The notes: generated from the letters alone by a model not told the origin. A stretch of 64,000 nt of DNA from Candidatus Saccharimonadota bacterium (GCA_003153395.1 PLYP01000006.1:1-64000); one strand, 5' to 3'; counted from the first letter of the stretch, positions 19,541 to 31,239 are shown. Numbers and translations are program-made.

Positions 19541-19615
19541 TGGGGCGTGGCCAAGTGGTAAGGCACCAGTTTTTGGTACTGGCATCCGCAGGTTCGAATC
19601 CTGCCGCCCCAGCCA
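19541..19615 (+). tRNA. tRNA-Gln (UUG), CCA encoded
   Basis: Cloverleaf readable by eye: acceptor TGGGGCG/CGCCCCA, D-arm with AAGTGGTAA, anticodon stem CCAGT/ACTGG with a 7-base loop giving anticodon TTG, T-arm GCAGG/CCTGC with loop TTCGAAT, discriminator G and encoded CCA at 19613-19615. It marks the left edge of an accessory region. Its last 25 bases (GGTTC, 14 bases, CAGCCA) recur in diverged form six times downstream, as expected of an integration target. Confidence 0.96.
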
Positions 19616-19620
19616 AACAC
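19591..19620 (+). repeat. tRNA-Gln 3' end as founding copy of the spaced repeat
   Basis: GGTTC at 19591-19595, 14 bases, then CAGCCA at 19610-19615, continuing AAACACGCCTAT into the flank. The six downstream copies keep the two end blocks, the exact 14-base spacing and the CC at inner positions 5-6, which pairs with GG in the T-stem (the 31209 copy has TC). The copy at 31209 also shares CGCCTAT in the 3' flank, suggesting it is the original right-hand partner. Confidence 0.75.
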
Positions 19621-19678
19621 GCCTATTGACAGTGCTTACGATTGCTAATATTGTAGCTTTGTCGTCAAGCAGGGAGAT

Positions 19679-20758
19679 ATGGTGAAATTACGAGAGCAGA
19701 CAAGATTACTGACTTCTATCGTTGGCAGCTACCCCAAGCCCAAGGACATTTACCCTAAGTCGGGTAGAAAATTATTAGACAGCTTTGGGTCTTCCTTCGA
19801 AGCGTACGAACAAAAAACAGGCAAACAAAAGTTCAGCGCGTTATTAGATCAGGCTGCGCTGACAGCAATTGCTGACCAAACTCAGGCCGGTATTGACATC
19901 ATCACTGATGGAGAAGAACGACGTGGCCACTATGTGCTGTCCATTATTAATAAACTGTCGGGTATAGACACTTTAAACTTGAAAAATATCAGTATTCGCA
20001 ACGGGACTGCTGAACAGATGGCTCCACGAGTAACTGGTAAAATGGCATATAACGGATCGATCGTAACAGAAGAGTACGCTTTTACTAACAGCCACACCAA
20101 TAAACTTATTAAAATCGGCCTACCTGGCCCTGCGACAGTAGTTGATTGTGTCGCAGACGAATACTACAAAGGTGATAAAAAACAACTGGCTTATGACTAC
20201 GCCGACGCTATTCGCTCTGAAGTTGCGGCCTTAATAAAAGCTGGTTGCAAGGTGATTCAGTTTGATGACCCAGTGTTGCTGCGCTATCCCGATGAGGCTC
20301 GCGATTGGGGGCTAAAAGCGCTTGAAAGATGTTTCGAGGGATACCAGAACAAGGCGACTTTTATCGTGCACATCTGTCGAGGTTACCCAGATAAGCCCTT
20401 GGAAAGGAAAGGAATTAACTACAAAGCCAATCAGAACTATTACGTAGATATTCTGGCCTGGTTATCGCAGTCTAAGCTTGATGTCGTTTCGATCGAGGCG
20501 GCTCAAGGTAATCTGGATCTTTCAATCTTGCCAGCCATTGGCAACAAAACTGTCATGCTCGGGGTTTTAGACGTTGGAAATAACAAAGTTGAAACGGTCA
20601 ATGAGTTGACCGCGCGCGGTCGAGAAGCTTTGCGGTACCTACCGAAGGATCAACTAATACTTGCACCCGATTGCGGTATGATCGAGCTTTCCAGAAGCTC
20701 TGCTAAAGGAAAACTCAGTAATTTAGCAACTGCAGCAAATAAGCTGAACAGAGTCTGA
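19679..20758 (+). CDS. Cobalamin-independent methionine synthase-like protein (MetE C-terminal/archaeal type)
   Basis: Transfers a methyl group to homocysteine or a related thiol. The 359 residues cover only the catalytic C-terminal barrel, as in archaeal short MetE, and begin with the typical SIVGSYPKP. The zinc ligands are visible: His and Cys in VHICRGYP, Glu in VSIEAAQG and Cys in LAPDCGMIEL. GDGEERRG-like TDGEERRGHYV is also family-typical. A GGGAGA sequence precedes the ATG. It is the first gene after tRNA-Gln, and its stop is followed 3 bases later by a tRNA-end repeat. Methyl donor is unknown for short forms. Confidence 0.85.
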   Translation: MVKLREQTRLLTSIVGSYPKPKDIYPKSGRKLLDSFGSSFEAYEQKTGKQKFSALLDQAALTAIADQTQAGIDIITDGEERRGHYVLSIINKLSGIDTLNLKNISIRNGTAEQMAPRVTGKMAYNGSIVTEEYAFTNSHTNKLIKIGLPGPATVVDCVADEYYKGDKKQLAYDYADAIRSEVAALIKAGCKVIQFDDPVLLRYPDEARDWGLKALERCFEGYQNKATFIVHICRGYPDKPLERKGINYKANQNYYVDILAWLSQSKLDVVSIEAAQGNLDLSILPAIGNKTVMLGVLDVGNNKVETVNELTARGREALRYLPKDQLILAPDCGMIELSRSSAKGKLSNLATAANKLNRV

Positions 20759-20761
20759 AAT

Positions 20762-20787
20762 GGTTCCTGACCGAGATGCTCAGCCGA
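20762..20787 (+). repeat. tRNA-Gln 3'-end-like repeat, copy 2
   Basis: GGTTC, 14 bases (CTGACCGAGATGCT), CAGCCG, preceded by TGAAAT. It begins 3 bases after the stop codon of the MetE-like gene. Compared with tRNA-Gln the ends and the inner CC are kept and the rest has diverged. Confidence 0.7.
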
Positions 20788-20869
20788 AAACTACTATGTT
20801 ATGAAAGTCTATGAAGCCTAGAAATGCATCCAGTAAAATGACTTCGTACCAATAACTTACAAACCGGCG

Positions 20870-20875
20870 TATAAT
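20870..20875 (+). promoter_or_regulatory. -10 box before the MTB12-like gene
   Basis: TATAAT 38 bases before the ATG at 20914. A second TATAAT (20897-20902) lies 11 bases before the ATG and is followed by TAGGAGAG as ribosome binding site. Either could serve; the first gives a normal leader. Confidence 0.45.
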
Positions 20876-20913
20876 GCCCCTATAGGAAGCTTAATTTATA
20901 ATTTAGGAGAGCT

Positions 20914-21411
20914 ATGAGAAAGTATTGGATTGTCTTAATAGCGCTAGTAGTTATTGTAGGTGGCGGTTGTGCCATCTGGTGGTTTGCCAGTGGCCAAAAT
21001 ACCAATAATTCTACTAGCACTACATCTTCAGCTGCTACTCAAACGTCAGCTAAAAATCAAATCAGAGCCAACTGGGTAAAATTCTTCGCCGGCACGACCT
21101 CTGCCCAGAACAAAATCAACCTACTGCAGAACGGCCAACAGTTCGCTCAAGTCATTCAAGCTCAAGCACAATCGGCAACGGCTAAGGCGACAACCGCGAC
21201 AGTTTCCAACGTGAGCCTTAGCGGCAACACCGCGTCTGTTACATACACCATTGATATAAACAAGCAGCCGGCGCTCAGTAACCAAAAGGGTCAAGCTGTC
21301 GATGTGAATGGTACCTGGAAGGTGGGTGACGCTGCCTTTTGTGGGTTACTCCAGCTATCTGGCAGTGTACCGCCGAATTGCCCGGCTACTACCAGCCCGT
21401 CGTCCCAATAG
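20914..21411 (+). CDS. Secreted/anchored MTB12-like protein
   Basis: An N-terminal membrane segment (about 4-26, ending in GGGCAIWWFASG, a weak lipobox at best) and a Ser/Thr/Asn-rich spacer (27-50) precede a domain that resembles the C-terminal domain of mycobacterial low-molecular-weight antigen MTB12: WVKFFAGTTSAQNKINLLQNG (about 55-75), TVSNVSLSGNTASVTYTID, GTWKVGDAAFCGLLQLSG and a final PPNC. That family is largely actinobacterial, which fits acquisition from an actinobacterial host or donor, though this is inference. It is followed after 30 bases by an MFS exporter, so the two may be co-transcribed. Confidence 0.7.
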   Translation: MRKYWIVLIALVVIVGGGCAIWWFASGQNTNNSTSTTSSAATQTSAKNQIRANWVKFFAGTTSAQNKINLLQNGQQFAQVIQAQAQSATAKATTATVSNVSLSGNTASVTYTIDINKQPALSNQKGQAVDVNGTWKVGDAAFCGLLQLSGSVPPNCPATTSPSSQ

Positions 21412-21441
21412 CATCAAATCTAACCTTGAAGGAGTGTTGTT

Positions 21442-22995
21442 ATGGCCGTGGCTGCAGCGCCTATGAAACGCCGAGGGGTTTTAGCTGTTGTCTGTACTAT
21501 CCTGTTTTTGACTTTTTTAGATAACACCATTGTGAGCGTTGTTCTGTCGGGAATCCAGACAGATCTCAATGCCAGCGTTCAAGCACTTCAATGGATAGTT
21601 GCCGGCTATATGCTAGCTTTTTCCGCCTTAATGCTGACCGGTGGTACCCTGGGTGATATCTTCGGCCGTAAAAAAATCATGCTCGGCGGTCTGGCTGTGT
21701 TTTCGGTAGGCTCGGCGGTGGCCATGCTAGCGCCATCAACCGGTGTACTGACGGCCGGCCGAGTGATCATGGGTATTGGTGCAGCCGCCTCGGAACCAGG
21801 TACATTGTCTGTGATCCGCCATATTTTCCCAGATCGAAAATCGCGTTCCAGGGCCCTAGGCGTGTGGGCGGCAGTATCGGGCTCGGCACTGGCTTTCGGG
21901 CCGATTATTGGCGGTCTCATCAGCGGCGTTGCCAGCTGGCGGGAAGTATTTACCTTTAACTTGATTGCCGGGATCTTAATATTGATTATCGGGCTAAAGG
22001 TTTTGCCCGAAAGTGCCGACCCGCAGGGCCGGAAAGTGGATATTGGCGGACTTATATTAGGAGCGGCAGCGCTTGGACTAGCAGTATTTTCTGTTATAGC
22101 TGGCGAGTCGGCAGGTTATAGCACGTGGTGGATTGATGCATTATTTGCTGCTTCAGCTCTTTTCTTGGCCATTTTCATTTACTGGGAGCGGCGATATGCT
22201 GACGCCATGCTTAAGCTGAGCTATTTCCGCATACCAGCTTTTAGCGGCGCAAACATAATTGCCTTTGCCACTAACTTCGGAGTATTTGCGATTTTTTTCT
22301 TCACGGCACTCTACCTGGCTATCGTTGCCGGCTTTTCGGGATACCGTATCGCACTGTCGTTCGTGGCTTTGGCTGCCAGTATGGTAGCCTCGTCATCGTT
22401 CACCGGCCGCTGGCTGGCTAGGCACGGCCCAATCTATCCTATGACGGTAGGTTGCTTGCTGGGTGGTATAGGTATCTTCGTAGTTGATGCGATTATGAAA
22501 CCGGGGGTCAACACCGGCACATTGATTTGGTCGTTAGCTATTGTAGGCTTTGGGTTTGGTATGACGCTGGTAACCTCAACCAGCATAGTGTTAACAATCA
22601 TACCCGCTGAACGGTCCGGCATGGCATCCTCGACGTTTAATGTGTCGAGGGAACTGGGCGGTGTATTCGGAGTGGCGGTGCTTGGATCTATCGTAAATGG
22701 ACAGCTGACATCGCAGCTGATCCAAAAATTGCAGGCTTTGGGATTACCTCATGACTTTCAGTCGCTGGTTACTTATGCGATTACTCACGGCGGTAACTTA
22801 CCAGCCAATAGCCATGTTTCGGCCGGAGCAGTGTTGAGCCATCCCCAGTTAGTGCAACAAGTAACTAACGCATCGTATCAAGCTTTTGGAAATGGCTTGG
22901 ATATTGCCCTGCGGTTAGCTGGGATAGTTATGTTAATATCGGCCGTTATCTCGGTTCTGACTATGCGGCTACCGGCGAACAAGTTGCGGTTCTAG
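21442..22995 (+). CDS. MFS transporter, DHA2 (EmrB/QacA) drug exporter type
   Basis: 517 residues with about 14 membrane helices, the DHA2 topology. Motifs: FLDNTIVSVVLSGIQTDLNAS in helix 1 (D-x-T-I-V-N/S-V-A-L type), the motif A loop GDIFGRKKIML (about 70-80), and motif C in helix 5 (SGSALAFGPIIGGLISGV). Likely a proton-driven exporter of drugs or metabolites. Start: ATG 21442 behind AAGGAGTG. Base composition looks clearly more GC-rich than the flanking core genes. Its TAG stop lies inside the next tRNA-end repeat. Confidence 0.92.
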   Translation: MAVAAAPMKRRGVLAVVCTILFLTFLDNTIVSVVLSGIQTDLNASVQALQWIVAGYMLAFSALMLTGGTLGDIFGRKKIMLGGLAVFSVGSAVAMLAPSTGVLTAGRVIMGIGAAASEPGTLSVIRHIFPDRKSRSRALGVWAAVSGSALAFGPIIGGLISGVASWREVFTFNLIAGILILIIGLKVLPESADPQGRKVDIGGLILGAAALGLAVFSVIAGESAGYSTWWIDALFAASALFLAIFIYWERRYADAMLKLSYFRIPAFSGANIIAFATNFGVFAIFFFTALYLAIVAGFSGYRIALSFVALAASMVASSSFTGRWLARHGPIYPMTVGCLLGGIGIFVVDAIMKPGVNTGTLIWSLAIVGFGFGMTLVTSTSIVLTIIPAERSGMASSTFNVSRELGGVFGVAVLGSIVNGQLTSQLIQKLQALGLPHDFQSLVTYAITHGGNLPANSHVSAGAVLSHPQLVQQVTNASYQAFGNGLDIALRLAGIVMLISAVISVLTMRLPANKLRF

Positions 22996-23014
22996 ACCGG
23001 CATGCTCAGCCAAA
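22988..23014 (+). repeat. tRNA-Gln 3'-end-like repeat, copy 3
   Basis: GGTTC, TAGACCGGCATGCT, CAGCCA then AA. The MFS stop codon TAG is the first three bases of the inner segment, so gene and repeat are fused. It matches copy 4 over 25 consecutive bases. Confidence 0.75.
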
Positions 23015-23017
23015 TGG

Positions 23018-23023
23018 TAAACT
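23018..23023 (+). promoter_or_regulatory. -10 box of the cupin gene
   Basis: TAAACT ending 7 bases before the ATG at 23031; no Shine-Dalgarno. It lies only 3 bases after the tRNA-end repeat, so the cupin unit would carry its own leaderless promoter. Confidence 0.4.
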
Positions 23024-23030
23024 AAAGTAG

Positions 23031-23456
23031 ATGAAACCATACACTATCATAGGTGCTAACGAGACAGAGGATGCCTACGCTGGAAGCGATGACGTTCCGG
23101 GGGAGTTTCGTAGACTGACCAGCGCTCTCAACTGCGAGCAATTGGCCATAACATTAATCCGCATTCCGCCTCATTCTGATTTTGAGCAGGGCACTGGCCA
23201 TTTTCACGAAGAGGTTGAGGAGGTTTACTTAATAACTCGTGGTACATTAACGATGCGCTTCGGCATCGACATTAAAAAGGTCTCGGCTGGCTCAGCAGTA
23301 CGCGTAGCGCCCAAGACCCCGCGTTCGCATCGTAATGAAGGCGACGAACCGGTAGAAATGTGGGCTATATCGCTTAAGATTGACCACCATGATGCCACTA
23401 AAATAGACGATTTCTGGGAAGCATCCGAACAAGCCAAACAGCACCTTGCGGATTAA
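23031..23456 (+). CDS. Cupin domain protein, 141 aa
   Basis: A single cupin barrel. Motif 1 G-x5-H-x-H-x3,4-E-x6-G is seen as GTGHFHEEVEEVYLITRG (about 50-67), and motif 2 as PRSHRNEGDEPVEMWAIS (about 96-113) with a likely metal His in RSHRNEG. Enzymatic and small-molecule-binding cupins cannot be told apart here. The gene is alone between two tRNA-end repeats (copies 3 and 4), making the smallest unit of the accessory region at about 470 bases. Its stop codon directly abuts copy 4. Confidence 0.85.
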   Translation: MKPYTIIGANETEDAYAGSDDVPGEFRRLTSALNCEQLAITLIRIPPHSDFEQGTGHFHEEVEEVYLITRGTLTMRFGIDIKKVSAGSAVRVAPKTPRSHRNEGDEPVEMWAISLKIDHHDATKIDDFWEASEQAKQHLAD

Positions 23457-23485
23457 GATTCTAGACCGGCATGCTCAGCCAAAGC
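23457..23485 (+). repeat. tRNA-Gln 3'-end-like repeat, copy 4
   Basis: GATTC, TAGACCGGCATGCT, CAGCCA then AAGC, starting on the base after the cupin stop codon. Identical to copy 3 over 25 bases except for the second base of the first block. Confidence 0.75.
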
Positions 23486-23560
23486 ATAAGTATTATCTTT
23501 GCTTAACCGTCTTGAGCAATTATTGCAGGTACGGAGTACAATTGAAGGTATACGTATTGG

Positions 23561-23577
23561 TATAATTTAGAAGGAGG
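23561..23577 (+). promoter_or_regulatory. -10 box and strong ribosome binding site of the YggT-like gene
   Basis: TATAAT (23561-23566) is followed by AAGGAGG (23571-23577). Two ATGs follow in tandem. The second, at 23584, has the better spacing (6 bases). Confidence 0.5.
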
Positions 23578-23583
23578 CATATG

Positions 23584-23973
23584 ATGGCCGACGACATTCA
23601 AAAAGTTCGTGAAACGACTACTCAATCAGGTGATACAGTTCAAAAAACTACCGAAACGAAAAGCTCAAGTGATAAAGCCGAGCATCGGAGTAATGTAGCT
23701 TCAAGAGTTGTTTGGTTTGTTGCGGGAGTATTACTTGTGCTACTTGGGTTCCGATTTGTACTTACGTTGCTTGGTGCTAATACTACTAATAGCTTTGCCA
23801 GTTTTATCTATAAAACATCACACCCATTTGTTTCTCCCTTCTTCAGCTTGTTTAACTATAACAATCAAGTTTATGGGGTCTCTCGTTTCGAAACCTATAC
23901 CTTAGTGGCTATGGTAGTCTATGCAATAATTGCATGGGGAATTGCCAAATTGATTACATTGAATCGAGATTAG
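23584..23973 (+). CDS. YggT-like membrane protein
   Basis: About 129 residues. A charged, Thr/Ser/Lys-rich cytoplasmic N-terminus (1-40) precedes two membrane helices (about 41-68 and 103-123) joined by a loop, SFASFIYKTSHPFVSPFFSLF, that resembles the YggT family's F...P.L.P.R segment. Function in these organisms is unknown; YggT proteins are tied to envelope or osmotic functions elsewhere. The first ATG at 23581 is possible but only 3 bases from the Shine-Dalgarno. Confidence 0.65.
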   Translation: MADDIQKVRETTTQSGDTVQKTTETKSSSDKAEHRSNVASRVVWFVAGVLLVLLGFRFVLTLLGANTTNSFASFIYKTSHPFVSPFFSLFNYNNQVYGVSRFETYTLVAMVVYAIIAWGIAKLITLNRD

Positions 23974-24099
23974 ATATACTTGCTTCAAACCTTACAAGTT
24001 CAGCCTCGCCCCAAATGAAAGATTACAAATACCGATCGAGACACATAAACAGGTAATTAATATGTCGCGGGAGGATAAGTTAATAAAGTGTCATGGGAG

Positions 24100-24105
24100 T
24101 ACAAT
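24100..24105 (+). promoter_or_regulatory. -10 box of the LapA-like gene
   Basis: TACAAT ending 7 bases before the ATG at 24113; no Shine-Dalgarno sequence, so probably leaderless. Confidence 0.45.
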
Positions 24106-24112
24106 ATGAACT

Positions 24113-24439
24113 ATGAATAATAGTATTCCTAACAATCGACCGGAAGAGAACTCTGATAAACAAGCTGTTTCCGATCTACCACTACGTGAAGCGAAGAAGA
24201 CACGAATAAGCACAGCATGGTTTATGGCGGTAAGTTTTATTATCTTACTCCTATTGTTACTAATTTTTATCTTACAAAACCTACAGGACATACCTATTCA
24301 GTTCATTAGCTTTCACTGGAAAATTCCGCAAGGTATTGCAATGCTACTTGCTGCAGTTGTAGGCGGATTTTTAGTGGCGTTGTTTGGCACGGCTCGAGTT
24401 GTCCAGCTAGGACGCAGATTAAGAAAAGACAAAAGCTAA
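24113..24439 (+). CDS. LapA-domain (DUF1049) membrane protein
   Basis: 108 residues. After a polar N-terminus (1-33) come two membrane helices (about 36-58 and 75-97) separated by QNLQDIPIQFISFHWKIPQGI, the N...V.v.F..w....P.. pattern of lipopolysaccharide assembly protein A. It ends with a basic tail RLRKDKS. As CPR bacteria generally lack lipopolysaccharide, the E. coli role is unlikely to apply directly. Confidence 0.75.
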   Translation: MNNSIPNNRPEENSDKQAVSDLPLREAKKTRISTAWFMAVSFIILLLLLLIFILQNLQDIPIQFISFHWKIPQGIAMLLAAVVGGFLVALFGTARVVQLGRRLRKDKS

Positions 24440-24468
24440 GCAACGATATCCAATTTACTTCTACCCTC

Positions 24469-24490
24469 GTTAACCAAGGCCAGCCAAAGC
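24469..24490 (+). repeat. Possible decayed tRNA-end repeat (half site)
   Basis: CAGCCAAAGC matches the right end and flank of copy 4 exactly over 10 bases, and the inner CC and GGC are partly kept, but there is no GGTTC block at the expected place. It lies 30 bases after the lapA-like stop, where a boundary before the toxin-antitoxin pair would be expected. Confidence 0.3.
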
Positions 24491-24500
24491 GTAATAGGCA

Positions 24501-24528
24501 TTGACAAGTGGCACACTTTTGATACACT
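24501..24528 (+). promoter_or_regulatory. Promoter of the toxin-antitoxin pair
   Basis: Consensus TTGACA (24501-24506), a 16-base spacer and TACACT (24523-24528), ending 6 bases before the antitoxin ATG. A strong leaderless promoter. TACACTGGATAC near the start may also serve as operator, but I see no clear palindrome. Confidence 0.65.
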
Positions 24529-24534
24529 GGATAC

Positions 24535-24759
24535 ATGAGTACATCAAAATCCCGAATCAATGTTAGTGTTCCTGACGATGTTAAAGCTGCCCTAACTAAG
24601 TTAGCTAAAAGGGATCAGCTACCCACCGCCACAAAGGCAGTACGTCTTATAGAAATGGGCCTCGAACTGGAGGAAGATGAAATCTGGGACAAAATAGCAG
24701 CTAATAGAGACCAGAAGGAAACCAAGTTTCATACGCACGCTGAAGTATTCGAGACCTAG
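24535..24759 (+). CDS. Antitoxin, ribbon-helix-helix type
   Basis: 74 residues. The N-terminal strand-helix-helix SRINVSVPDDVKAALTKLAKRDQ with TATKAVRLIEMGLELEEDE is the RHH DNA-binding dimerisation pattern; the acidic/polar C-terminus (about 52-74) would wrap the toxin. Its stop is immediately followed by the toxin ATG, the usual antitoxin-first order. Autoregulation is expected for the family but no operator is proven. Confidence 0.8.
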   Translation: MSTSKSRINVSVPDDVKAALTKLAKRDQLPTATKAVRLIEMGLELEEDEIWDKIAANRDQKETKFHTHAEVFET

Positions 24760-25032
24760 ATGTACGAGATCCTCTATATTGATGAGGTGGTTAACGAAGA
24801 TTTACCATACATTTTAGAACCTTGGAAAAGTGAGATTAGAAAAGCGATTGAGTTAAAACTAATGACTCGTCCCGAAGCTTACAGCAAACCCCTCCGTCGG
24901 TCATTAAAAGGTTATCGAAAACTAAAGGTTGGCGATTATAGAATAGTCCTGAGGATCGAAGACAAAGTAGTCAAAGTTTTTGTCATTCAGCATAGGTCCG
25001 TCGTATACGAGACTGCACCCAAACGGCTATAA
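24760..25032 (+). CDS. RelE/ParE family toxin
   Basis: 90 residues with the RelE fold pattern: YEILYIDEVVNEDLPYILEPWKSEIRKAIE helix region, LKGYRKLKVGDYRIVLRIED (strands with the conserved basic L.g.yR.r.gdyRv motif) and VVKVFVIQHRSVVYE at the end. RelE members cleave mRNA on the ribosome and ParE members poison gyrase; GDYRIV and QHR suggest RelE, but the subtype is uncertain. Such a pair could stabilise the surrounding accessory region. Confidence 0.82.
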   Translation: MYEILYIDEVVNEDLPYILEPWKSEIRKAIELKLMTRPEAYSKPLRRSLKGYRKLKVGDYRIVLRIEDKVVKVFVIQHRSVVYETAPKRL

Positions 25033-25167
25033 CATCGAAGCTGTTTGGGATGATTTGAAGAAAAGCACAGACCTCGTTGAAGGACGGGAAGAACAAAGTT
25101 AAGAAAACAAGTGCACTGGGTGTCTCATTTGCCTCGTTTAACAGAGACTCCCTCAAGAAGAGGATGA

Positions 25168-25173
25168 TATACT
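25168..25173 (+). promoter_or_regulatory. -10 box of the P-loop kinase gene
   Basis: TATACT ending exactly 6 bases before the ATG at 25180; no Shine-Dalgarno. Leaderless transcript expected. Confidence 0.6.
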
Positions 25174-25179
25174 AAAGCA

Positions 25180-25716
25180 ATGACAGATAGTGGCGTACTT
25201 GTTCTTGTGATCACAGGGTCAGTCGGTGTCGGCAAGTCGAGCACGGCAGATGTAATATCGGAGATTCTAAGAAAACGTGATGTCCCGCATGCCGTAATCG
25301 ACATGGACTATTTACGCTATGCGTTTCCTCGTCCAGCAGACGATCCATTCCATCGGACGCTGGGCGCTAAAAACTTAGCATCTGTCTGGAAAAATTACCA
25401 GAGCATTGGTGTACGCAATATTATCATTCCTAACATCGTTGAAGATAAGGCCGATGTCGATGCTATTGCCAAGGCCATACCCGGCGCTAAAGTTTTTGTC
25501 GTTCGCTTAAAGGCATCCCTGGACACGATACATAATCGACTCCACGAACGTCATCACAATCGCGACAGCGACAATCTTAATTGGCACCTTGATCGAGCAG
25601 ACGAGCTCACTAAACAACTGGAAAGTTCTAAAGTGGAAGATTTTGTGGTTGATACTGACGATAAGCCTTTAAGAGAAATCGCGAAAGAAATACTTGTAAA
25701 ATGGTTGAGTAATTGA
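25180..25716 (+). CDS. P-loop kinase, adenylylsulfate kinase/Zeta-like
   Basis: 178 residues. N-terminal Walker A GSVGVGKSS (about 12-20), then an acidic D-x-D in AVIDMDYLRY (about 40-49), and a Thr/Arg-rich HNRLHERHHNRDSD lid near 116-130. The layout matches small AAA_33/APS-kinase-like enzymes that phosphorylate a nucleotide or small metabolite. There is no dedicated APS motif, so the substrate is not assigned. It is not obviously linked to the RelE pair 147 bases upstream. The stop lies 6 bases before the next tRNA-end repeat. Confidence 0.7.
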   Translation: MTDSGVLVLVITGSVGVGKSSTADVISEILRKRDVPHAVIDMDYLRYAFPRPADDPFHRTLGAKNLASVWKNYQSIGVRNIIIPNIVEDKADVDAIAKAIPGAKVFVVRLKASLDTIHNRLHERHHNRDSDNLNWHLDRADELTKQLESSKVEDFVVDTDDKPLREIAKEILVKWLSN

Positions 25717-25722
25717 CGAAAA

Positions 25723-25749
25723 GGTTCTAGACCGGCACGCTCAACCAAG
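25723..25749 (+). repeat. tRNA-Gln 3'-end-like repeat, copy 5
   Basis: GGTTC, TAGACCGGCACGCT, CAACCA then AG, preceded by GAAAA. It differs from copy 3 at one inner base and in the right block. Its antisense reading encodes VERAGLEP, the kind of peptide produced when an antisense tRNA T-arm is translated. Confidence 0.7.
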
Positions 25750-25851
25750 TATTGCACCAAAGGAGACCGTAATCCTATTAAGCAGCACCAAAAAAACACT
25801 TAAGTCTGTAGAATCCCTCGATGTTCGAACCGCTGACTCAGAATTTATAAT

Positions 25852-26508
25852 TTATTGTCGCGGGGATTTTTCGCCATAAATAAGATCGCCCGCGTCGCCA
25901 AGACCGGGAAAAATTAAAAACTCGTCGTTCAACTTGTCGTCAATGGCCGCCGCAAAAAGCACTAGATCCGGGATATGCCGGCCTATGTACTCAATAGCCG
26001 GTTTGCTTGCCAGCACGCTAGCTGCGTAGACTACAGATGGTTTGCCATATTTCATCAGCTCGTAGTAAGTGTCAACAAGCGTTGTTCCGGTGGCGATCAT
26101 CGTATCGGCAATGATTAGCGGACGTCCATCTAGCGGTGGGCAGGCAACGTATTCAATCACGCTTTGCATAGCACCATCGCTCCCCAGTCGCCGATAGGCA
26201 GTAATGAAGGCGCTGTCCGCTTGGTCAAACACGTCTAGCATTCCCTGGTGAAATGGAAGTCCCGCACGCAAAACAGTAGCTAATACCGGCTGCGTAACCA
26301 ATTCATGCGTCTTGGCCGCGCCAAGTACCGTCTGCGTTGTAGCTTTGTGGTAGTCCAACTCCTTGCTTATCTCATAACCAATTAACATCCCGGTGCGTTT
26401 AACGTTAGTAACAAACCGTAGGCGATCTTGCTGAATAGACTTATCCCTCAGTTCACGTAGGTACTGGTTGATGATCGAGGAGTGAGTGGATAAATCGCGG
26501 ATTTGCAT
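25852..26508 (-). CDS. upp: Uracil phosphoribosyltransferase
   Basis: Salvages uracil with PRPP to UMP. 218 residues with family hallmarks: PVLATVLRAGLPFHQGMLD (about 75-93), the PRPP-binding LIIADTMIATGTTLVD (about 132-147) and the uracil site FPGLGDAGDLIYGE near the C-terminus. On the minus strand TATGCT (26515-26520) ends 6 bases before the ATG. It diverges from the baeRF/hydrolase/CCA genes and is the first gene in the longest module of the accessory region. GC-richer than core genes. Confidence 0.92.
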   Translation of the reverse strand: MQIRDLSTHSSIINQYLRELRDKSIQQDRLRFVTNVKRTGMLIGYEISKELDYHKATTQTVLGAAKTHELVTQPVLATVLRAGLPFHQGMLDVFDQADSAFITAYRRLGSDGAMQSVIEYVACPPLDGRPLIIADTMIATGTTLVDTYYELMKYGKPSVVYAASVLASKPAIEYIGRHIPDLVLFAAAIDDKLNDEFLIFPGLGDAGDLIYGEKSPRQ

Positions 26509-26633
26509 GCCTATAGCATACTACAGGTCGCAGCAGCGTGAACGTTATGAATTTGATCTAGATCACTACACCTGGGTGGCAATTATCACTGACTACTATT
26601 CTTAACGGCCCCATACTTCAGCTGTAGATGTAT

Positions 26634-26641
26634 AAAGGAGG
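26634..26641 (+). promoter_or_regulatory. Strong ribosome binding site for a 46-codon ORF
   Basis: AAAGGAGG, 7 bases before ATG 26649. This decides that the short ORF, and not only the baeRF gene 110 bases further on, is translated. Confidence 0.6.
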
Positions 26642-26648
26642 TGTGCTT

Positions 26649-26789
26649 ATGAAAGCATCGGCAGCGGAATGTCATGCAATCAATGACCGCCCCTGCGTAA
26701 AAGCAAATCAAGACCGTACTTCGGATAAGACTTTACATAACCAGAGTAGGATAAACAATGATAAATTTTCCCAATCAACAAGAGCTTAA
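26649..26789 (+). CDS. Short ORF, 46 aa, coupled to the baeRF gene
   Basis: Begins MKASAAECHAIND and ends SQSTRA; polar, two Cys, no membrane segment, no recognised family. Support comes from the strong Shine-Dalgarno and from a 32-base overlap with the next gene, whose own ATG (26758) has no good ribosome binding site. It could be a leader peptide whose translation opens the baeRF start, or a small protein. It may also be fortuitous. Confidence 0.45.
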   Translation: MKASAAECHAINDRPCVKANQDRTSDKTLHNQSRINNDKFSQSTRA

Positions 26790-27603
26790 GACACTACGGG
26801 CTTTTAATGAACTCAACTGCGTAACAATCTATGCTCCATTTATTGACCCGAATGCAGCAACCAATCCAAACAGGATTGAACTTAAAAATCTACTACGTGA
26901 AACCGAAACAGCCTTACGGTCTGCCCACGTGGAACCAGGAGAAATAAAACAGACGCTCCGACCTGCCCGGGCACTGCTAGAAAACCACGAATTCTGGCCA
27001 ATAAAGCACGAGAGCCTGGCCCTGTTTATGCACCCAAAGCTATTTAGCTATTACCACATTCCCGACCACGACATCCCATATGTGCTGACTGTTGGAAAAG
27101 GCTTCAATTTGAAGCCCCTAATTAAAGCCGCGCAAGAGAACAAATCATACTTTGTCTTAGCGCTTAACCATAACAATGTTCAATTATACAAAGGCGACCA
27201 TTACAACCTCCAACCGGTGCGCCTCAAAAACTTTCCTACCAATATGAAACGGTCGCTCAACATTGATGAATACCCAAAAGCAAGCGAGACGCACAACATT
27301 GCACCCGCCAGTACTGGCAAGGGTTCAGAAGCATATCACGGCCAATATAACGTCAGCCAAACTGACAAAGTCATGCTCCTCCAATTTTTTAAGCACATAG
27401 ATAAGCGCCTACATGCTTTTTTGCGGCGTAACCAGTCGCCGCTGATACTGGCCGGTGTCAACTACTTATTACCAATCTATCGCCAGGTTAATACTTCTGA
27501 GTATCTACTGGAAGACAACCTAAAAGGCAGCTTTGAGCGAACTGACCTGGACACTATAAGAAAACGCTCATTGGCACTTATCAATAGAGGGGAGCCTGTA
27601 TGA
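26758..27603 (+). CDS. Archaeo-eukaryotic release factor-like protein (baeRF family)
   Basis: 281 residues matching, in layout, bacterial relatives of eRF1/aRF1: an N-terminal domain with CVTIYAPFIDPNAATNPNRI (about 22-41), LFMHPKLFSYYHIPD, a middle domain YFVLALNHNNVQLYKGD (about 136-152, a classic baeRF strand) and a C-terminal domain ending ILAGVNYLLPIYRQVN with YLLEDNLKGS. Some family members act in ribosome rescue or hibernation; the role here is unknown. The stop overlaps the next start by 4 bases (ATGA). Confidence 0.7.
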   Translation: MINFPNQQELKTLRAFNELNCVTIYAPFIDPNAATNPNRIELKNLLRETETALRSAHVEPGEIKQTLRPARALLENHEFWPIKHESLALFMHPKLFSYYHIPDHDIPYVLTVGKGFNLKPLIKAAQENKSYFVLALNHNNVQLYKGDHYNLQPVRLKNFPTNMKRSLNIDEYPKASETHNIAPASTGKGSEAYHGQYNVSQTDKVMLLQFFKHIDKRLHAFLRRNQSPLILAGVNYLLPIYRQVNTSEYLLEDNLKGSFERTDLDTIRKRSLALINRGEPV

Positions 27604-28265
27604 AAACCGAGTTACATAAACCTGCAACAGTTTCAGCGCGAATCGTGCACATACCTATCGATGGCTTTGAACTAGAGGCTGAGCTGCAAGTTCCGCCGGA
27701 AGCCAAAGGATTGGTTATTTTTGCCCACGGTAGCGGTAGTAGCCGGCATAGTCCACGAAACAAATTTGTTGCGCAAAAGTTGCTTCAAGATTCGCTAGCT
27801 ACGTTACTGGTGGATTTGCTATCGGAGGAAGAGGATAGTTATTATCAAAGTCGGTTTGACATAGCATTACTTACTGAGCGTCTTGTTATAATCACTGACT
27901 GGGCCACACATTACGAAGCTACTGAACATCTCAACATCGGTTATTTCGGTGCTAGTACAGGTGCGGCCGCTGCTATGTTGGCCGCAGCCGGGGCTGAAGA
28001 TGTTGTTAAAGCAATTGTCTCCCGCGGTGGGCGAGTAGACCTGGCAGACGAGGCTGCAGCATCGGTGAGAGTACCCACGATGCTCATCGTTGGGCTACAA
28101 GATCACGGTGTCCGGGAAGCAAATGAAGAAGTCTTTATGAAGCTCAAGGGCAAAAAAGACCTTGCTGAAATTCCTAACGCCACCCATCTGTTTGAAGAGC
28201 CAGGCGCTTTGGAGCGTGTCGCTCAACTAGCATCAGCCTGGTTTGGAGAGTATTTAAACCCGTGA
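27600..28265 (+). CDS. Dienelactone hydrolase-type alpha/beta hydrolase
   Basis: 221 residues. Oxyanion HGSGSSRHSPRN (about 43-54), nucleophile elbow GYFGASTGAAAAM (about 120-132, G-x-S-x-G), acid in LIVGLQDHGVRE and the catalytic His in ATHLFEEPG. This subgroup often neighbours phosphoribosyltransferases, as here with upp in the same module. Translationally coupled to the baeRF gene by ATGA. The substrate is unknown. Confidence 0.82.
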   Translation: MKTELHKPATVSARIVHIPIDGFELEAELQVPPEAKGLVIFAHGSGSSRHSPRNKFVAQKLLQDSLATLLVDLLSEEEDSYYQSRFDIALLTERLVIITDWATHYEATEHLNIGYFGASTGAAAAMLAAAGAEDVVKAIVSRGGRVDLADEAAASVRVPTMLIVGLQDHGVREANEEVFMKLKGKKDLAEIPNATHLFEEPGALERVAQLASAWFGEYLNP

Positions 28266-28339
28266 ACCATCGCAGCCTGACTTGTCCATATGTCCAACAC
28301 TAGATCGGTGGCAATGGCGTGATAGCCTTCATAAGACCC

Positions 28340-30193
28340 ATGAAAACCAAGCAACAAATAGAGGCGAAGCCATTAGGCATTGATTTAGCTTCTAGGGCTG
28401 AATCCCAACTATTCTTGTGGTTTCTCGCCTGTTTGCTCTTTGGCAAACCTATCCAACGGGAAATTGCTGGTCAAGCCTACAAAACACTAACCGATGCCGG
28501 CATAAATTCGTTAAACCAACTGCTTAAAACCGACTGGAACACCCTGGTCGCCCTACTTGACCAAGCCCGCTACGTGCGTTATGACTTTTCGACTGCCACC
28601 AAGCTACTCGAGGTTGCCAAGGCCCTAAAAGAACAATACGGTTCAGTTACCCAGTTACTTAAACAATCCGCTAACATTGGAGATTTAGAAAAGCATCTAA
28701 CAGCTTTTAAAGGTATTGGGCCAGTAACCGCCGCTATTTTTATCAGAGGCTTGGTACCGGTATGGTTTGAAGAAGCTACACCTCATGATTATGAGGCTGC
28801 CAGGTATGCTGCAGGTATCCTCAGCCGACAGGGCTTCGAGGCCTATATCATCGGCGGGGCAGTTAGGGATCTCTGGCTTGGCCGACACCCTAAGGATTTT
28901 GACCTGGTCAGCAACGCTACTCCCAAACAACTCATGGGGATTGCTGAATTTAATCAGTCAACGTATAAAGACGCGTCCCAAGCCTTTGGCGTCACGCGGG
29001 TTAAGTTCTTGCATCAAGGTATTAGCCATGAATTGGAGGTCGCAACGTTTAGGAAGGACCTTGAAGCTCATCAGGGGCGGAAAGCCACAAAAGTTATCTT
29101 TGCCAAGCTCGAAGATGATGTAACCCGCCGAGATTTTACAATTAATGCCCTGGCACTTAACCCAATAACCAATCAGATAATTGACTACGTTGGCGGTATT
29201 GATGATTTAGACAATAAGATAGTGCGGTTTATCGGTAAACCCGAACAGCGGATTCAAGAAGACCCTCTGCGCATCATGCGCGCGATTAGGTTTAAGAACC
29301 AGCTAGGCTTTTCTTACCACCCGGCAGCTGTTTTAGCTATTAAAAAGGCTGTTAAACAGGGGTGCATAGAGACTATAGCGGTTGACCGGCTTCGTGATGA
29401 ATTAACAAATCTCCTCATCGACCCAAGCCGGAGTAGTTCAGTTCATGATTTAAGCCGGTTTGGCATATTAGAGCAGGTTTTGCCCGAGGTTACGGCTGCT
29501 AGGGGTATAGTTCAACCGCAGCAGTTTCACGCTGAGGGTGACGTTTGGCAGCATGAGCTACTAATTCTTGACTACCTGCCGCCGAACCCCAGTAAGCGCC
29601 TGGCTTGGGCAGCTTTGTTGCACGACATTGGTAAAGGCCCGACGAGCACTAAGCCCCTTAGCTCAAAGGATCGCATTCGTTTCAACCGGCATTATGCCGT
29701 GGGCTCTGAAATGGCTAAAACTATCCTCAGAAGACTCAAATTTTCAAACCATGACATAAAGGATATTACCTGGATGATTTATAACCATATTGCCATCGAT
29801 GATCTGCCCTCAATGCGTCCGAGCCGACAACAGAGTATGCTGGGTTATCCGGCTTTCGAAGATTTGCTTGAATTACACCGTGCCGATGCCGCAGCTAGTT
29901 GGAGGCCCGGCAAACCTCATGGCACCAAGCCTAAGTTTCGGGAAATTGAGCACCTGTGGCACCTATACCAATCCAAAAGCCCTGAACTCAAGCAACCATC
30001 GCTGAAGCGAGATCTTGGCATTGATGGTAAGTGGCTACTCAAAGAGTTCGGAAAAGAGTTTAATATTTCCTCGGGACCGTCAATCGGGGAAGTCCTTTCC
30101 ACTTTAGAGGACTGGTATAAAGATGAGGGCATCAAAGATCCAGAAGCCTATAAACGCAAAGCAAGGCACTTACTTAAGCGCTACACTCTATAG
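28340..30193 (+). CDS. HhH glycosylase-like domain fused to CCA-adding enzyme with HD domain
   Basis: 617 residues from ATG 28340; a GTG at 28319 would add seven. Residues 1-150 resemble the helix-hairpin-helix part of endonuclease III-type proteins (LFLWFLACLLFGKPI; hairpin FKGIGPVTAAIFIRGL). From about 150 follows a class II nucleotidyltransferase: AYIIGGAVRDLWLGRHPKDFDL with the G-G-x-V-R-D and D-x-D motifs, RRDFTINALAL, and EDPLRIMRAIRF. An HD domain (WAALLHDIGKGPT) and a C-terminal helical tail complete it. Known role of the middle part is tRNA 3' CCA addition or repair; what the N-terminal domain adds is not known to me. Confidence 0.85.
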   Translation: MKTKQQIEAKPLGIDLASRAESQLFLWFLACLLFGKPIQREIAGQAYKTLTDAGINSLNQLLKTDWNTLVALLDQARYVRYDFSTATKLLEVAKALKEQYGSVTQLLKQSANIGDLEKHLTAFKGIGPVTAAIFIRGLVPVWFEEATPHDYEAARYAAGILSRQGFEAYIIGGAVRDLWLGRHPKDFDLVSNATPKQLMGIAEFNQSTYKDASQAFGVTRVKFLHQGISHELEVATFRKDLEAHQGRKATKVIFAKLEDDVTRRDFTINALALNPITNQIIDYVGGIDDLDNKIVRFIGKPEQRIQEDPLRIMRAIRFKNQLGFSYHPAAVLAIKKAVKQGCIETIAVDRLRDELTNLLIDPSRSSSVHDLSRFGILEQVLPEVTAARGIVQPQQFHAEGDVWQHELLILDYLPPNPSKRLAWAALLHDIGKGPTSTKPLSSKDRIRFNRHYAVGSEMAKTILRRLKFSNHDIKDITWMIYNHIAIDDLPSMRPSRQQSMLGYPAFEDLLELHRADAAASWRPGKPHGTKPKFREIEHLWHLYQSKSPELKQPSLKRDLGIDGKWLLKEFGKEFNISSGPSIGEVLSTLEDWYKDEGIKDPEAYKRKARHLLKRYTL

Positions 30194-30258
30194 AATAGAC
30201 GGTATTTTTAGGTTCAAAATTATCATTTACCATTTTTAATAGTTGGGCTATAACTAGA

Positions 30259-30289
30259 AGGCTCCAAACCAACACGCCCAGCCAAACAC
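30259..30289 (+). repeat. tRNA-Gln 3'-end-like repeat, copy 6
   Basis: GGCTC (30260-30264), CAAACCAACACGCC, CAGCCA then AACAC. The right flank AACAC is the same as that following tRNA-Gln itself. It lies 66 bases after the stop of the CCA-enzyme gene. Confidence 0.65.
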
Positions 30290-30348
30290 TATTTACAACA
30301 TGTAGGTCCTTAAAGTCTAGGTTTAACTATACTAACGGAAACCAAAAA

Positions 30349-30373
30349 GGTTCATGTCTGGTATACCCACCCA
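30349..30373 (+). repeat. Weak further candidate tRNA-end repeat
   Basis: GGTTC, 14 bases, CACCCA, with an A-rich left flank like copies 5 and 7. The spacing is exact, but the inner segment does not have CC at positions 5-6, so this may be chance. Confidence 0.25.
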
Positions 30374-30409
30374 GACTGGGCAACAGATATAACTGCATCC
30401 CTAGAAATT

Positions 30410-30946
30410 CTATTTTTTATGCTCACTCAGCGTGTCGGCCACCATATCCGTATAATTTTTCATAAAATCACGCTGCTCTTTGCCGATATGTCCTTCAAAC
30501 TGGAAGTAGCTAAAAATAAGCGCACCTCCATTGCTAATTTTAAGGGGGTAAACGGCACTATAAGAAACACCGGAACTAGCTTGATTAATGTGCGCCTCTT
30601 CTGTTTTCAGCACAGGGCTATAGATGAAACGCCAATCAGTCGTATCTTTTGGTTTGCCAGTTTTAATAGCCCGGGCAATAATATTATCTTTATCGCCGAG
30701 CGGTATCCTAATGTCCTCAAAAGGTATATTAGATACTCTGATGATGTCCTTCGCCATATCTGAGTCGGACATGGCGATACGATCTATAGTGCCTGACTCC
30801 ACGTCAACGAGTAATAACACAATTATACCCAGGTACATAAACGCAACTTCTGATTCTTGATCAAATGGCGCGTTGACAATAACCTGAAAAAGCTCAGGTC
30901 CAATTTTTTCAGTATTTAATGCTAGTACGAGTTTCGCGTAATCCAT
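30410..30946 (-). CDS. GAF-like domain protein, 178 aa
   Basis: Soluble protein with alternating strands and helices: YLGIIVLLLVDVESGTIDRIAMSD, then FEDIRIPLGDKDNIIARAIKTGKP (typical GAF i-ai-tG-p), SAVYPLKISNGGALIFSYF and a closing helix RDFMKNYTDMVADTL. No catalytic or output domain is attached, so a small-molecule or redox sensor is possible but not shown. It starts one base after the stop of a small membrane protein gene on the same strand, so they form an operon. Confidence 0.6.
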   Translation of the reverse strand: MDYAKLVLALNTEKIGPELFQVIVNAPFDQESEVAFMYLGIIVLLLVDVESGTIDRIAMSDSDMAKDIIRVSNIPFEDIRIPLGDKDNIIARAIKTGKPKDTTDWRFIYSPVLKTEEAHINQASSGVSYSAVYPLKISNGGALIFSYFQFEGHIGKEQRDFMKNYTDMVADTLSEHKK

Positions 30947-30947
30947 T

Positions 30948-31169
30948 TTATTTCTTTGATCTTAAAGACACTGGTCCATAAATATTCTTGCTAACTAAAA
31001 CAAATTTTATAGTTGCCGATAGCCATCCTATAAGGAACCCAAAGAAAATTAAAGCTATATCTTTTAGATCTGATGTTCCCTTAAGTCTCCATCTAATTAG
31101 CAGAACAATTGCCCAGGCAATAAAAATTCCAATACTATATATCGTCCACGATTTGTACGATTTACTCAT
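30948..31169 (-). CDS. Small two-helix membrane protein, 73 aa
   Basis: Two predicted membrane helices (about 9-27 and 38-62) joined by a short basic loop RWRLKGTSDLKD, with a basic tail SLRSKK. No family recognised. First gene of the minus-strand pair with the GAF-like protein, suggesting a membrane-linked sensor unit (inference). Confidence 0.55.
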   Translation of the reverse strand: MSKSYKSWTIYSIGIFIAWAIVLLIRWRLKGTSDLKDIALIFFGFLIGWLSATIKFVLVSKNIYGPVSLRSKK

Positions 31170-31208
31170 ACCTTAATTGTACTCTTTAGGCAGTAAAAAA
31201 TGTTGAAA

Positions 31209-31239
31209 AGGTTCCTGATCGTCATATTCAGCCAACGCC
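31209..31239 (+). repeat. tRNA-Gln 3'-end-like repeat, copy 7 (right edge)
   Basis: GGTTC (31210-31214), CTGATCGTCATATT, CAGCCA then ACGCC, preceded by GAAAA. The right flank CGCCTAT matches that of tRNA-Gln, as expected if this was the original junction. Core-like genes resume after it. Confidence 0.65.

Follow-up and report, generated by a model that had tools for sequence, protein, structure and literature searches.

Known systems and the locus

The nearest published case that we found to the array described here, a series of short oriented sites behind a tRNA-Gln gene in a 64,000-nucleotide stretch of a Candidatus Saccharimonadota genome (G000:C2:1-64000, hereafter the window), is that of the Dehalococcoides ssrA-specific islands, which have a CcrB-like integrase, DsiB, and more than 12 direct repeats downstream of ssrA (PMC3146451). 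Fifteen of these islands lack an integration module, and beside the repeat lies a conserved element-side motif that is unlike ssrA (PMC3146451). The sites of serine integrases have also been described (PMC3783163). Next in closeness comes the staphylococcal cassette chromosome (SCC), in which large serine recombinases (CcrA/B/C) go with elements that lie in tandem, with att repeats between them, at an essential gene's 3' end. Tycheposons and other tRNA-targeting islands have tRNA 3' ends as insertion points and carry passenger cargo, but they use tyrosine recombinases and are not known to have per-gene sites.

We put the probability at roughly 70% that the repeats in the window are recombination sites of elements that are spread across the candidate phyla radiation (CPR) and integrate at the 3' end of tRNA-Gln by means of a CcrB/XisF-like serine recombinase of ~430 aa. 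With the Dehalococcoides islands, such arrays would share serial integration at the 3' end of an RNA gene, direct repeats, an element-side motif, units without an integration module, and a CcrB-like serine recombinase. The Dehalococcoides islands differ in their tmRNA target, insertion in the T-loop, and larger multi-gene units, whereas the CPR arrays have tRNA-Gln, tRNA-Met, or tRNA-Asn targets, a crossover at the CCA end, and units as small as a single open reading frame (ORF) plus a site, and are found in several CPR classes. SCC differs in its rlmH target, CcrAB pair, large resistance islands, and lack of single-gene arrays. Two traits of CcrB/SCC-like islands recur here: an element-borne enzyme with Resolvase, Recombinase, and Zn-ribbon domains, found in relatives and absent from the window's genome, and site-specific insertion at the preserved 3' end of an essential gene (tRNA-Gln and tRNA-Met intact, junction at CARCCA). 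The arrays nevertheless do not belong to SCC proper, as the match to the CcrB model is below its cut-off and the target is a tRNA rather than rlmH. Relative to both precedents, the single-gene cassettes, the tRNA platform, and the CPR-wide spread seem to be new; our searches of the open-licence literature turned up no account of cassette systems in CPR bacteria.

A family of oriented sites behind tRNA genes

The window belongs to a 920-kb genome from a Saccharibacteria-like order that is represented in our data set by 392 genomes, this one included (hereafter the order). All results should be read within the limits of metagenome-assembled genomes, simple ORF calling, and the relatedness of the sequences. 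ARAGORN predicts a tRNA-Gln(TTG) gene with an encoded CCA at 19541..19615 on the plus strand; its acceptor stem (TGGGGCG/CGCCCCA) is intact, and it would serve as an attB-like integration platform. Downstream of it, the motif GGTTCYNGACCGNNATGCTCAGCCA occurs six times, always on the plus strand, at positions 20762, 22988, 23457, 25723, 30260, and 31210. We number these sites 2 to 7. The repeats reported in the initial annotation lie exactly where it placed them, and the degenerate copy GGTTCCTGATCGTCATATTCAGCCA at 31210 adds to its list. With a position weight matrix (PWM) trained on 64 sites, copies 2 to 5 score 36.3 bits (20762..20786), 45.7 bits (22988..23012), 42.4 bits (23457..23481), and 40.7 bits (25723..25747; the CTCAACCA variant), and the degenerate copies 6 and 7 score 25.5 bits (30260..30284) and 26.0 bits (31210..31234). 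In a reversed-sequence control of ~486 kb of strand, no position scored above 10.5 bits, whereas the window copies score 25.5-46 bits and are therefore not due to chance. They are also a site family of their own rather than simple duplications of the tRNA, because the tRNA-Gln tail (19591-19616) agrees with the site consensus at only 18 of 26 bases. Copy 2 is preceded by GAACAGAGTCTGAAAT, as are other Saccharibacterial sites.

Genome-wide, matches to the consensus with up to three mismatches are confined to the window array. A second array lies behind tRNA-Gln(CTG) on contig C1, where a looser pattern detects two sites and the PWM a weaker third; the SDR-gene cassette of this array has counterparts of 91-92% identity in two other genera. 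An element of the repetitive extragenic palindromic type in 3' untranslated regions, which had been offered as an alternative, is excluded, since there is no hairpin and the copies are not scattered but held in these two tRNA-Gln arrays.

In the order, GGTTCYNGACCGNNATGCTCAGCCR with up to three mismatches was identified in 68 of the 392 genomes, often clustered, and there were few matches in a backwards control. An exact-pattern scan of 257 Gb of genomes returned 18 stretches, where ~0.06 would be expected by chance according to our own estimate. Nearly all of these are from CPR bacteria (Saccharibacteria, WWE3, Woesebacteria, and another Patescibacterium); two contigs are labeled Nitrospirae and Armatimonadetes. 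The latter two (L110, L115) are near-identical, come from one sediment, and both contain tRNA-Gln with a consensus site; they are probably misbinned CPR. IMG/VR contained zero exact matches of the site pattern. Many Saccharibacteria have this site, oriented as in the window, downstream of tRNA-Gln(TTG/CTG) or initiator tRNA-Met, and in WWE3 and other Patescibacteria it is found downstream of tRNA-Gln. Of the 69 sites that score at least 20 bits and share a locus with a tRNA, 66 are downstream of the tRNA and on its strand (58 with tRNA-Gln, 7 with tRNA-Met, and 1 with tRNA-Asn); some of these loci were picked via tRNA-Gln, while the tRNA-Met loci and most arrays were picked via the site alone.

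Crossover at the CCA end

Four junction comparisons place the crossover within CARCCA, at the 3' end of the site. First, a cassette start that is 97% identical between two genomes lies behind tRNA-Gln(CTG) in one (G233) and behind a site in the other (G190), and the sequences diverge to the left of CAGCCA. Second, a 2811-bp cassette without a recombinase is 99.9% identical in members of two genera from the same sampling series (G224 and G176) and ends exactly at CAGCCA. Third, a HAM1-family cassette spans site to site in both G224 and G034. Fourth, in G006, the cassette starts that follow tRNA-Met match those that follow a site. The base R of CARCCA corresponds to the discriminator of the target tRNA: A/G counts are 6/1 in tRNA-Met arrays and 3/55 in tRNA-Gln arrays (P = 7e-6; here and below, sites are not fully independent and P values are indicative). 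The 3' ends of the target tRNAs are intact. In a 6-mer test, conservation of cassette starts in general did not exceed that in shuffles. In several arrays (L086:10990, L088:4734, L091:873, L092:430), the junction reads CTCA|TATG in place of CTCA|GCCA, and TCACGAACTTGAGCA follows some of these.

A symmetric tyrosine-recombinase core centered on GNNATG was considered and rejected, because it would break the tRNA acceptor stem and because the junctions sit at CARCCA. That the crossover lies at the motif's right edge, and not within a symmetric core, also speaks against the idea that a tyrosine recombinase moves the cassettes, be it the lone Xer protein or a second enzyme of ~291 aa in WWE3, in an Xer-dependent or integron-type system. 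On the one hand, nearly all array-bearing genomes encode an Xer-type protein, and the ~291-aa enzyme is conserved in WWE3 and related genomes (L140-L145), where it lies beside tRNA-Met and tRNA-Ile. On the other hand, no tyrosine recombinase was found at any array, and in those elements that have an enzyme of their own, it is a serine recombinase. The ~291-aa protein is absent from the window's genome. Overall, we regard this explanation as improbable.

A serine recombinase associated with the sites

In the order, serine recombinases are often found beside the 3' ends of tRNAs. One type, ~430 aa in length, lies 0.15-2.3 kb from tRNA-Gln, tRNA-Met, or tRNA-Asn and is directed toward the tRNA. 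In seven islands, such a recombinase is near the tRNA and a site is at the far end (G032, G306, G034, G233, G398, G023, and G167); among them, G398 is from Woesebacteria, G023 has tRNA-Met and CAACCA, and G167 has tRNA-Asn and GAGCCA, as in that tRNA. The ~430-aa recombinases form one clade (support 100/99), and its tRNA-Gln subclade (99/99) spans Saccharibacteria, WWE3, and Woesebacteria. Targets follow the recombinase tree, and the subclade of G032, G306, and G034 has a P variant in common, GTAC[CT]AGACC. The proteins consist of Resolvase, Recombinase, and Zn ribbon domains; the nearest NCBIfam models, CcrB (best) and XisF, match far below their cut-offs (92-123 bits for CcrB vs a cut-off of 900). 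Behind the tRNA, the recombinase-bearing elements share a P' motif, approximately GGCACC-N6-GACC, which also follows the downstream ends of 8 of 112 sites, ~30-fold above random positions; window site 25723 is one of the eight. Since some array genomes lack serine recombinases, our first impression was that these enzymes are dispensable, and it was overturned by the neighborhood analysis that ties the ~430-aa clade to the site.

In the mechanism that we propose, the left half-site P (GGTTCYNGACCGNNATGCT) of a circular element would adjoin CARCCA. Recombination with the end of tRNA-Gln, of initiator tRNA-Met or, for a sister group, of tRNA-Asn would exchange DNA inside CARCCA, leaving the tRNA intact and bringing the P half-site to rest at the far end of the element. 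Repeated integration would then produce stacked elements with one site left per unit. Cassettes without a recombinase, in which one to a few genes are followed directly by the P half-site, make up most units in the window and are clearest in WWE3; they would owe their movement to a recombinase that acts in trans from another place. We infer the catalytic role of the ~430-aa enzyme, the circular intermediates, and the mobilization in trans from sequence; the site family, its association with tRNAs and its orientation, the CARCCA junctions, the identical cassettes across genera, and the recombinase elements bounded by tRNA and site can be read from the sequences directly.

Several observations weigh against this mechanism. 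The P' motif follows only 8 of the 112 site ends, and most cassettes therefore lack half of the presumed attP. No member of the ~430-aa clade is present in the window's genome, and PF00239 has no match in two array-bearing WWE3 genomes (G395, G396). In G190, a different recombinase, of ~550 aa, is found at the same tRNA, which may thus be a target of at least two enzymes. As the window's genome has no ~430-aa recombinase, its arrays are either fossil or reliant on an incoming enzyme. This genome does encode a 508-aa serine recombinase (G000:C2:80532-80987; L168:3471-4997, minus strand); the 3' end of its gene and tRNA-Asn(GTT) overlap on opposite strands. Recombinases with C-terminal codons that extend across a tRNA occur commonly in the order.

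The initial annotation had dismissed stacked islands, an idea that proves half right: the sites appear to mark the distal ends of elements that inserted at tRNA-Gln, most likely via a serine recombinase. A stricter version holds that all units were once full recombinase-bearing islands, that deletions removed the recombinase and most of the cargo, and that nothing moved in trans. Full-size elements do exist, the block that follows site 25723 retains a P' arm and looks decayed, and sites 30260 and 31210 are degenerate; the missing ~430-aa recombinase in the window's genome fits as well. However, WWE3 cassettes are minimal and occur several in series: the P half-site begins at the base after the ORF, and the next cassette begins ~10-30 nt past CCA. 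For example, one WWE3 locus (L155) runs from ORF to P half-site repeatedly (17460-18011/18021, 18035-18619/18620, and 18666-19268/19269). Independent deletions would not each end at CCA. Moreover, the 2.8-kb cassette that two genera share almost unchanged has no recombinase and stops precisely at a site, and it would therefore have moved without an enzyme of its own. We thus consider that stacked islands are unlikely to be the whole explanation.

Comparison with integrons

The initial annotation likened the array to integron cassettes, each built of a gene and a site at its 3' end. The layout stands: the units are genes plus sites that all face the same way, with a fixed platform ahead of them, four of the six window sites abut or overlap a stop codon, and WWE3 arrays are built alike, with sites starting at the base after stop codons. 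In the window, copy 2 starts 3 bases past the MetE-like stop (which ends at 20758), copy 3 contains the MFS stop codon (22993-22995), copy 4 starts at the base after the cupin stop (which ends at 23456), and copy 5 follows the kinase stop (which ends at 25716). The proposed comparison of distances to stop codons gave a split answer. In WWE3, Microgenomates, and other CPR bacteria, 15 of 23 sites (65%) fall in the interval of -25..+30 nt around a stop codon on their own strand, compared with 19% of random intergenic positions (P = 2e-6), whereas in all Saccharibacteria pooled, the window included, there is no excess (16% vs 18% in the control). Thus, the rule that sites stand at the 3' ends of genes is true of compact cassettes (the window, WWE3), not of the whole family; the universal features are position and orientation relative to tRNA-Gln or tRNA-Met.

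Integrons share with these arrays the oriented single genes, each with a site in the same orientation (4 of 6 in the window; WWE3 arrays), the fixed platform, and a crossover at the site's right edge. These likenesses, together with toxin-antitoxin cassettes, could be taken to indicate a true integron with attC sites whose IntI was lost or is distant. However, folding of the core and of the 100 nt upstream, on both strands, gave z-scores near 0 (mean -0.14 to -0.26), so that the sites fold no better than shuffles and the conserved single-strand hairpin that the initial annotation proposed to look for is present on neither strand. The complement of the right arm is no commoner upstream than in shuffles, the site has no GTTRRRY core, and the platform is a tRNA gene instead of attI. 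The genome has no IntI; its sole PF00589 protein is of the Xer type and is encoded on another contig. With neither a conserved hairpin nor IntI, and with a putative serine recombinase in its stead, this is not an integron, and we consider a lost or distant IntI very improbable. An attC-like hairpin seen in two loci (L086, L094), formed by TTGAGCAT/ATGCTCAG with GTC(C)AGG/CCTGAC, was rejected as a general feature after 107 sites were tested; attC-like pairing is absent in general.

We tentatively suggest that the arrays are a serine-recombinase counterpart of the integron that may have evolved independently of IntI/attC. Throughout the CPR, minimal cassettes (an ORF and a 25-bp half-site that lacks its partner) would be taken up in trans behind tRNA-Gln, which would equip bacteria of reduced genome with an all-purpose array for gene capture.

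Gene content of the window

The cassettes of the window are foreign, as their GC content is 0.45-0.50 compared with 0.39 in the flank. Cassette 1 (19616..20786, plus strand; GC 0.453) comprises a MetE/Meth_synt_2-like gene (19679-20758; PF01717) and a site; even a distant match to this gene (28% identity) was found in just 1 of the 391 other genomes of the order. Cassette 2 (20787..23012, plus strand; GC 0.499) has a lipoprotein-like gene (20914-21411), an EmrB/QacA-like MFS exporter (21442-22995), and a site, and cassette 3 (23013..23481, plus strand; GC 0.490) has a cupin gene (23031-23456; PF07883) and a site. Cassette 4 (23482..25747, plus strand) is probably composite: it contains genes for a YggT-like protein, a LapA-domain protein, a ribbon-helix-helix (RHH) antitoxin (24535-24759), a ParE-type toxin (24760-25032), and a P-loop kinase (25180-25716), followed by a site. 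Block 5 (25748..30284), with UPRT (minus strand), baeRF, hydrolase, and PcnB-like polymerase genes, is probably a decayed recombinase-type element, because the P' motif (AGTATTGCACCAAAGGAGACCGTAATCC) follows site 25723 at its left end, as in recombinase-bearing elements. Block 6 (30285..31234) consists of two minus-strand ORFs (30410-30946 and 30948-31169) and a site.

Toxin-antitoxin pairs are found among the cassettes (MazE-Fic, L086:9484-10079; RHH-ParE, window 24535-25032), as they are in chromosomal integrons. In a WWE3 locus (L157:12272-13198), the cassette immediately behind tRNA-Gln(CTG) encodes an AadA_C/nucleotidyltransferase protein resembling aminoglycoside adenylyltransferases, a gene type typical of integron cassettes. 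The sequence GTCTCATTTGTCTCATTT precedes, by 20-45 nt, sites at the ends of larger or recombinase-bearing elements (L056, L057, L060, L075, L077, L097, L099, L173, L233). A similar stretch within cassette 4 (window 25113-25146) has no site after it and is perhaps a lost element end.

Implications

CPR bacteria are tiny and parasitic and have reduced genomes, and the routes by which they gain genes are poorly known. The array behind tRNA-Gln, readable from a 25-bp motif, would be one such route in Saccharibacteria, WWE3, Woesebacteria, and other Patescibacteria. It would also provide a simple readout of recently acquired genes, such as efflux pumps, toxin-antitoxin pairs, Fic, NUDIX, and an aadA-like gene. 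If single-gene cassettes truly move in trans, gene cassettes would have evolved at least twice, with unrelated enzymes, and the question of how an ORF becomes fused to a recombination site would become testable in a second system.

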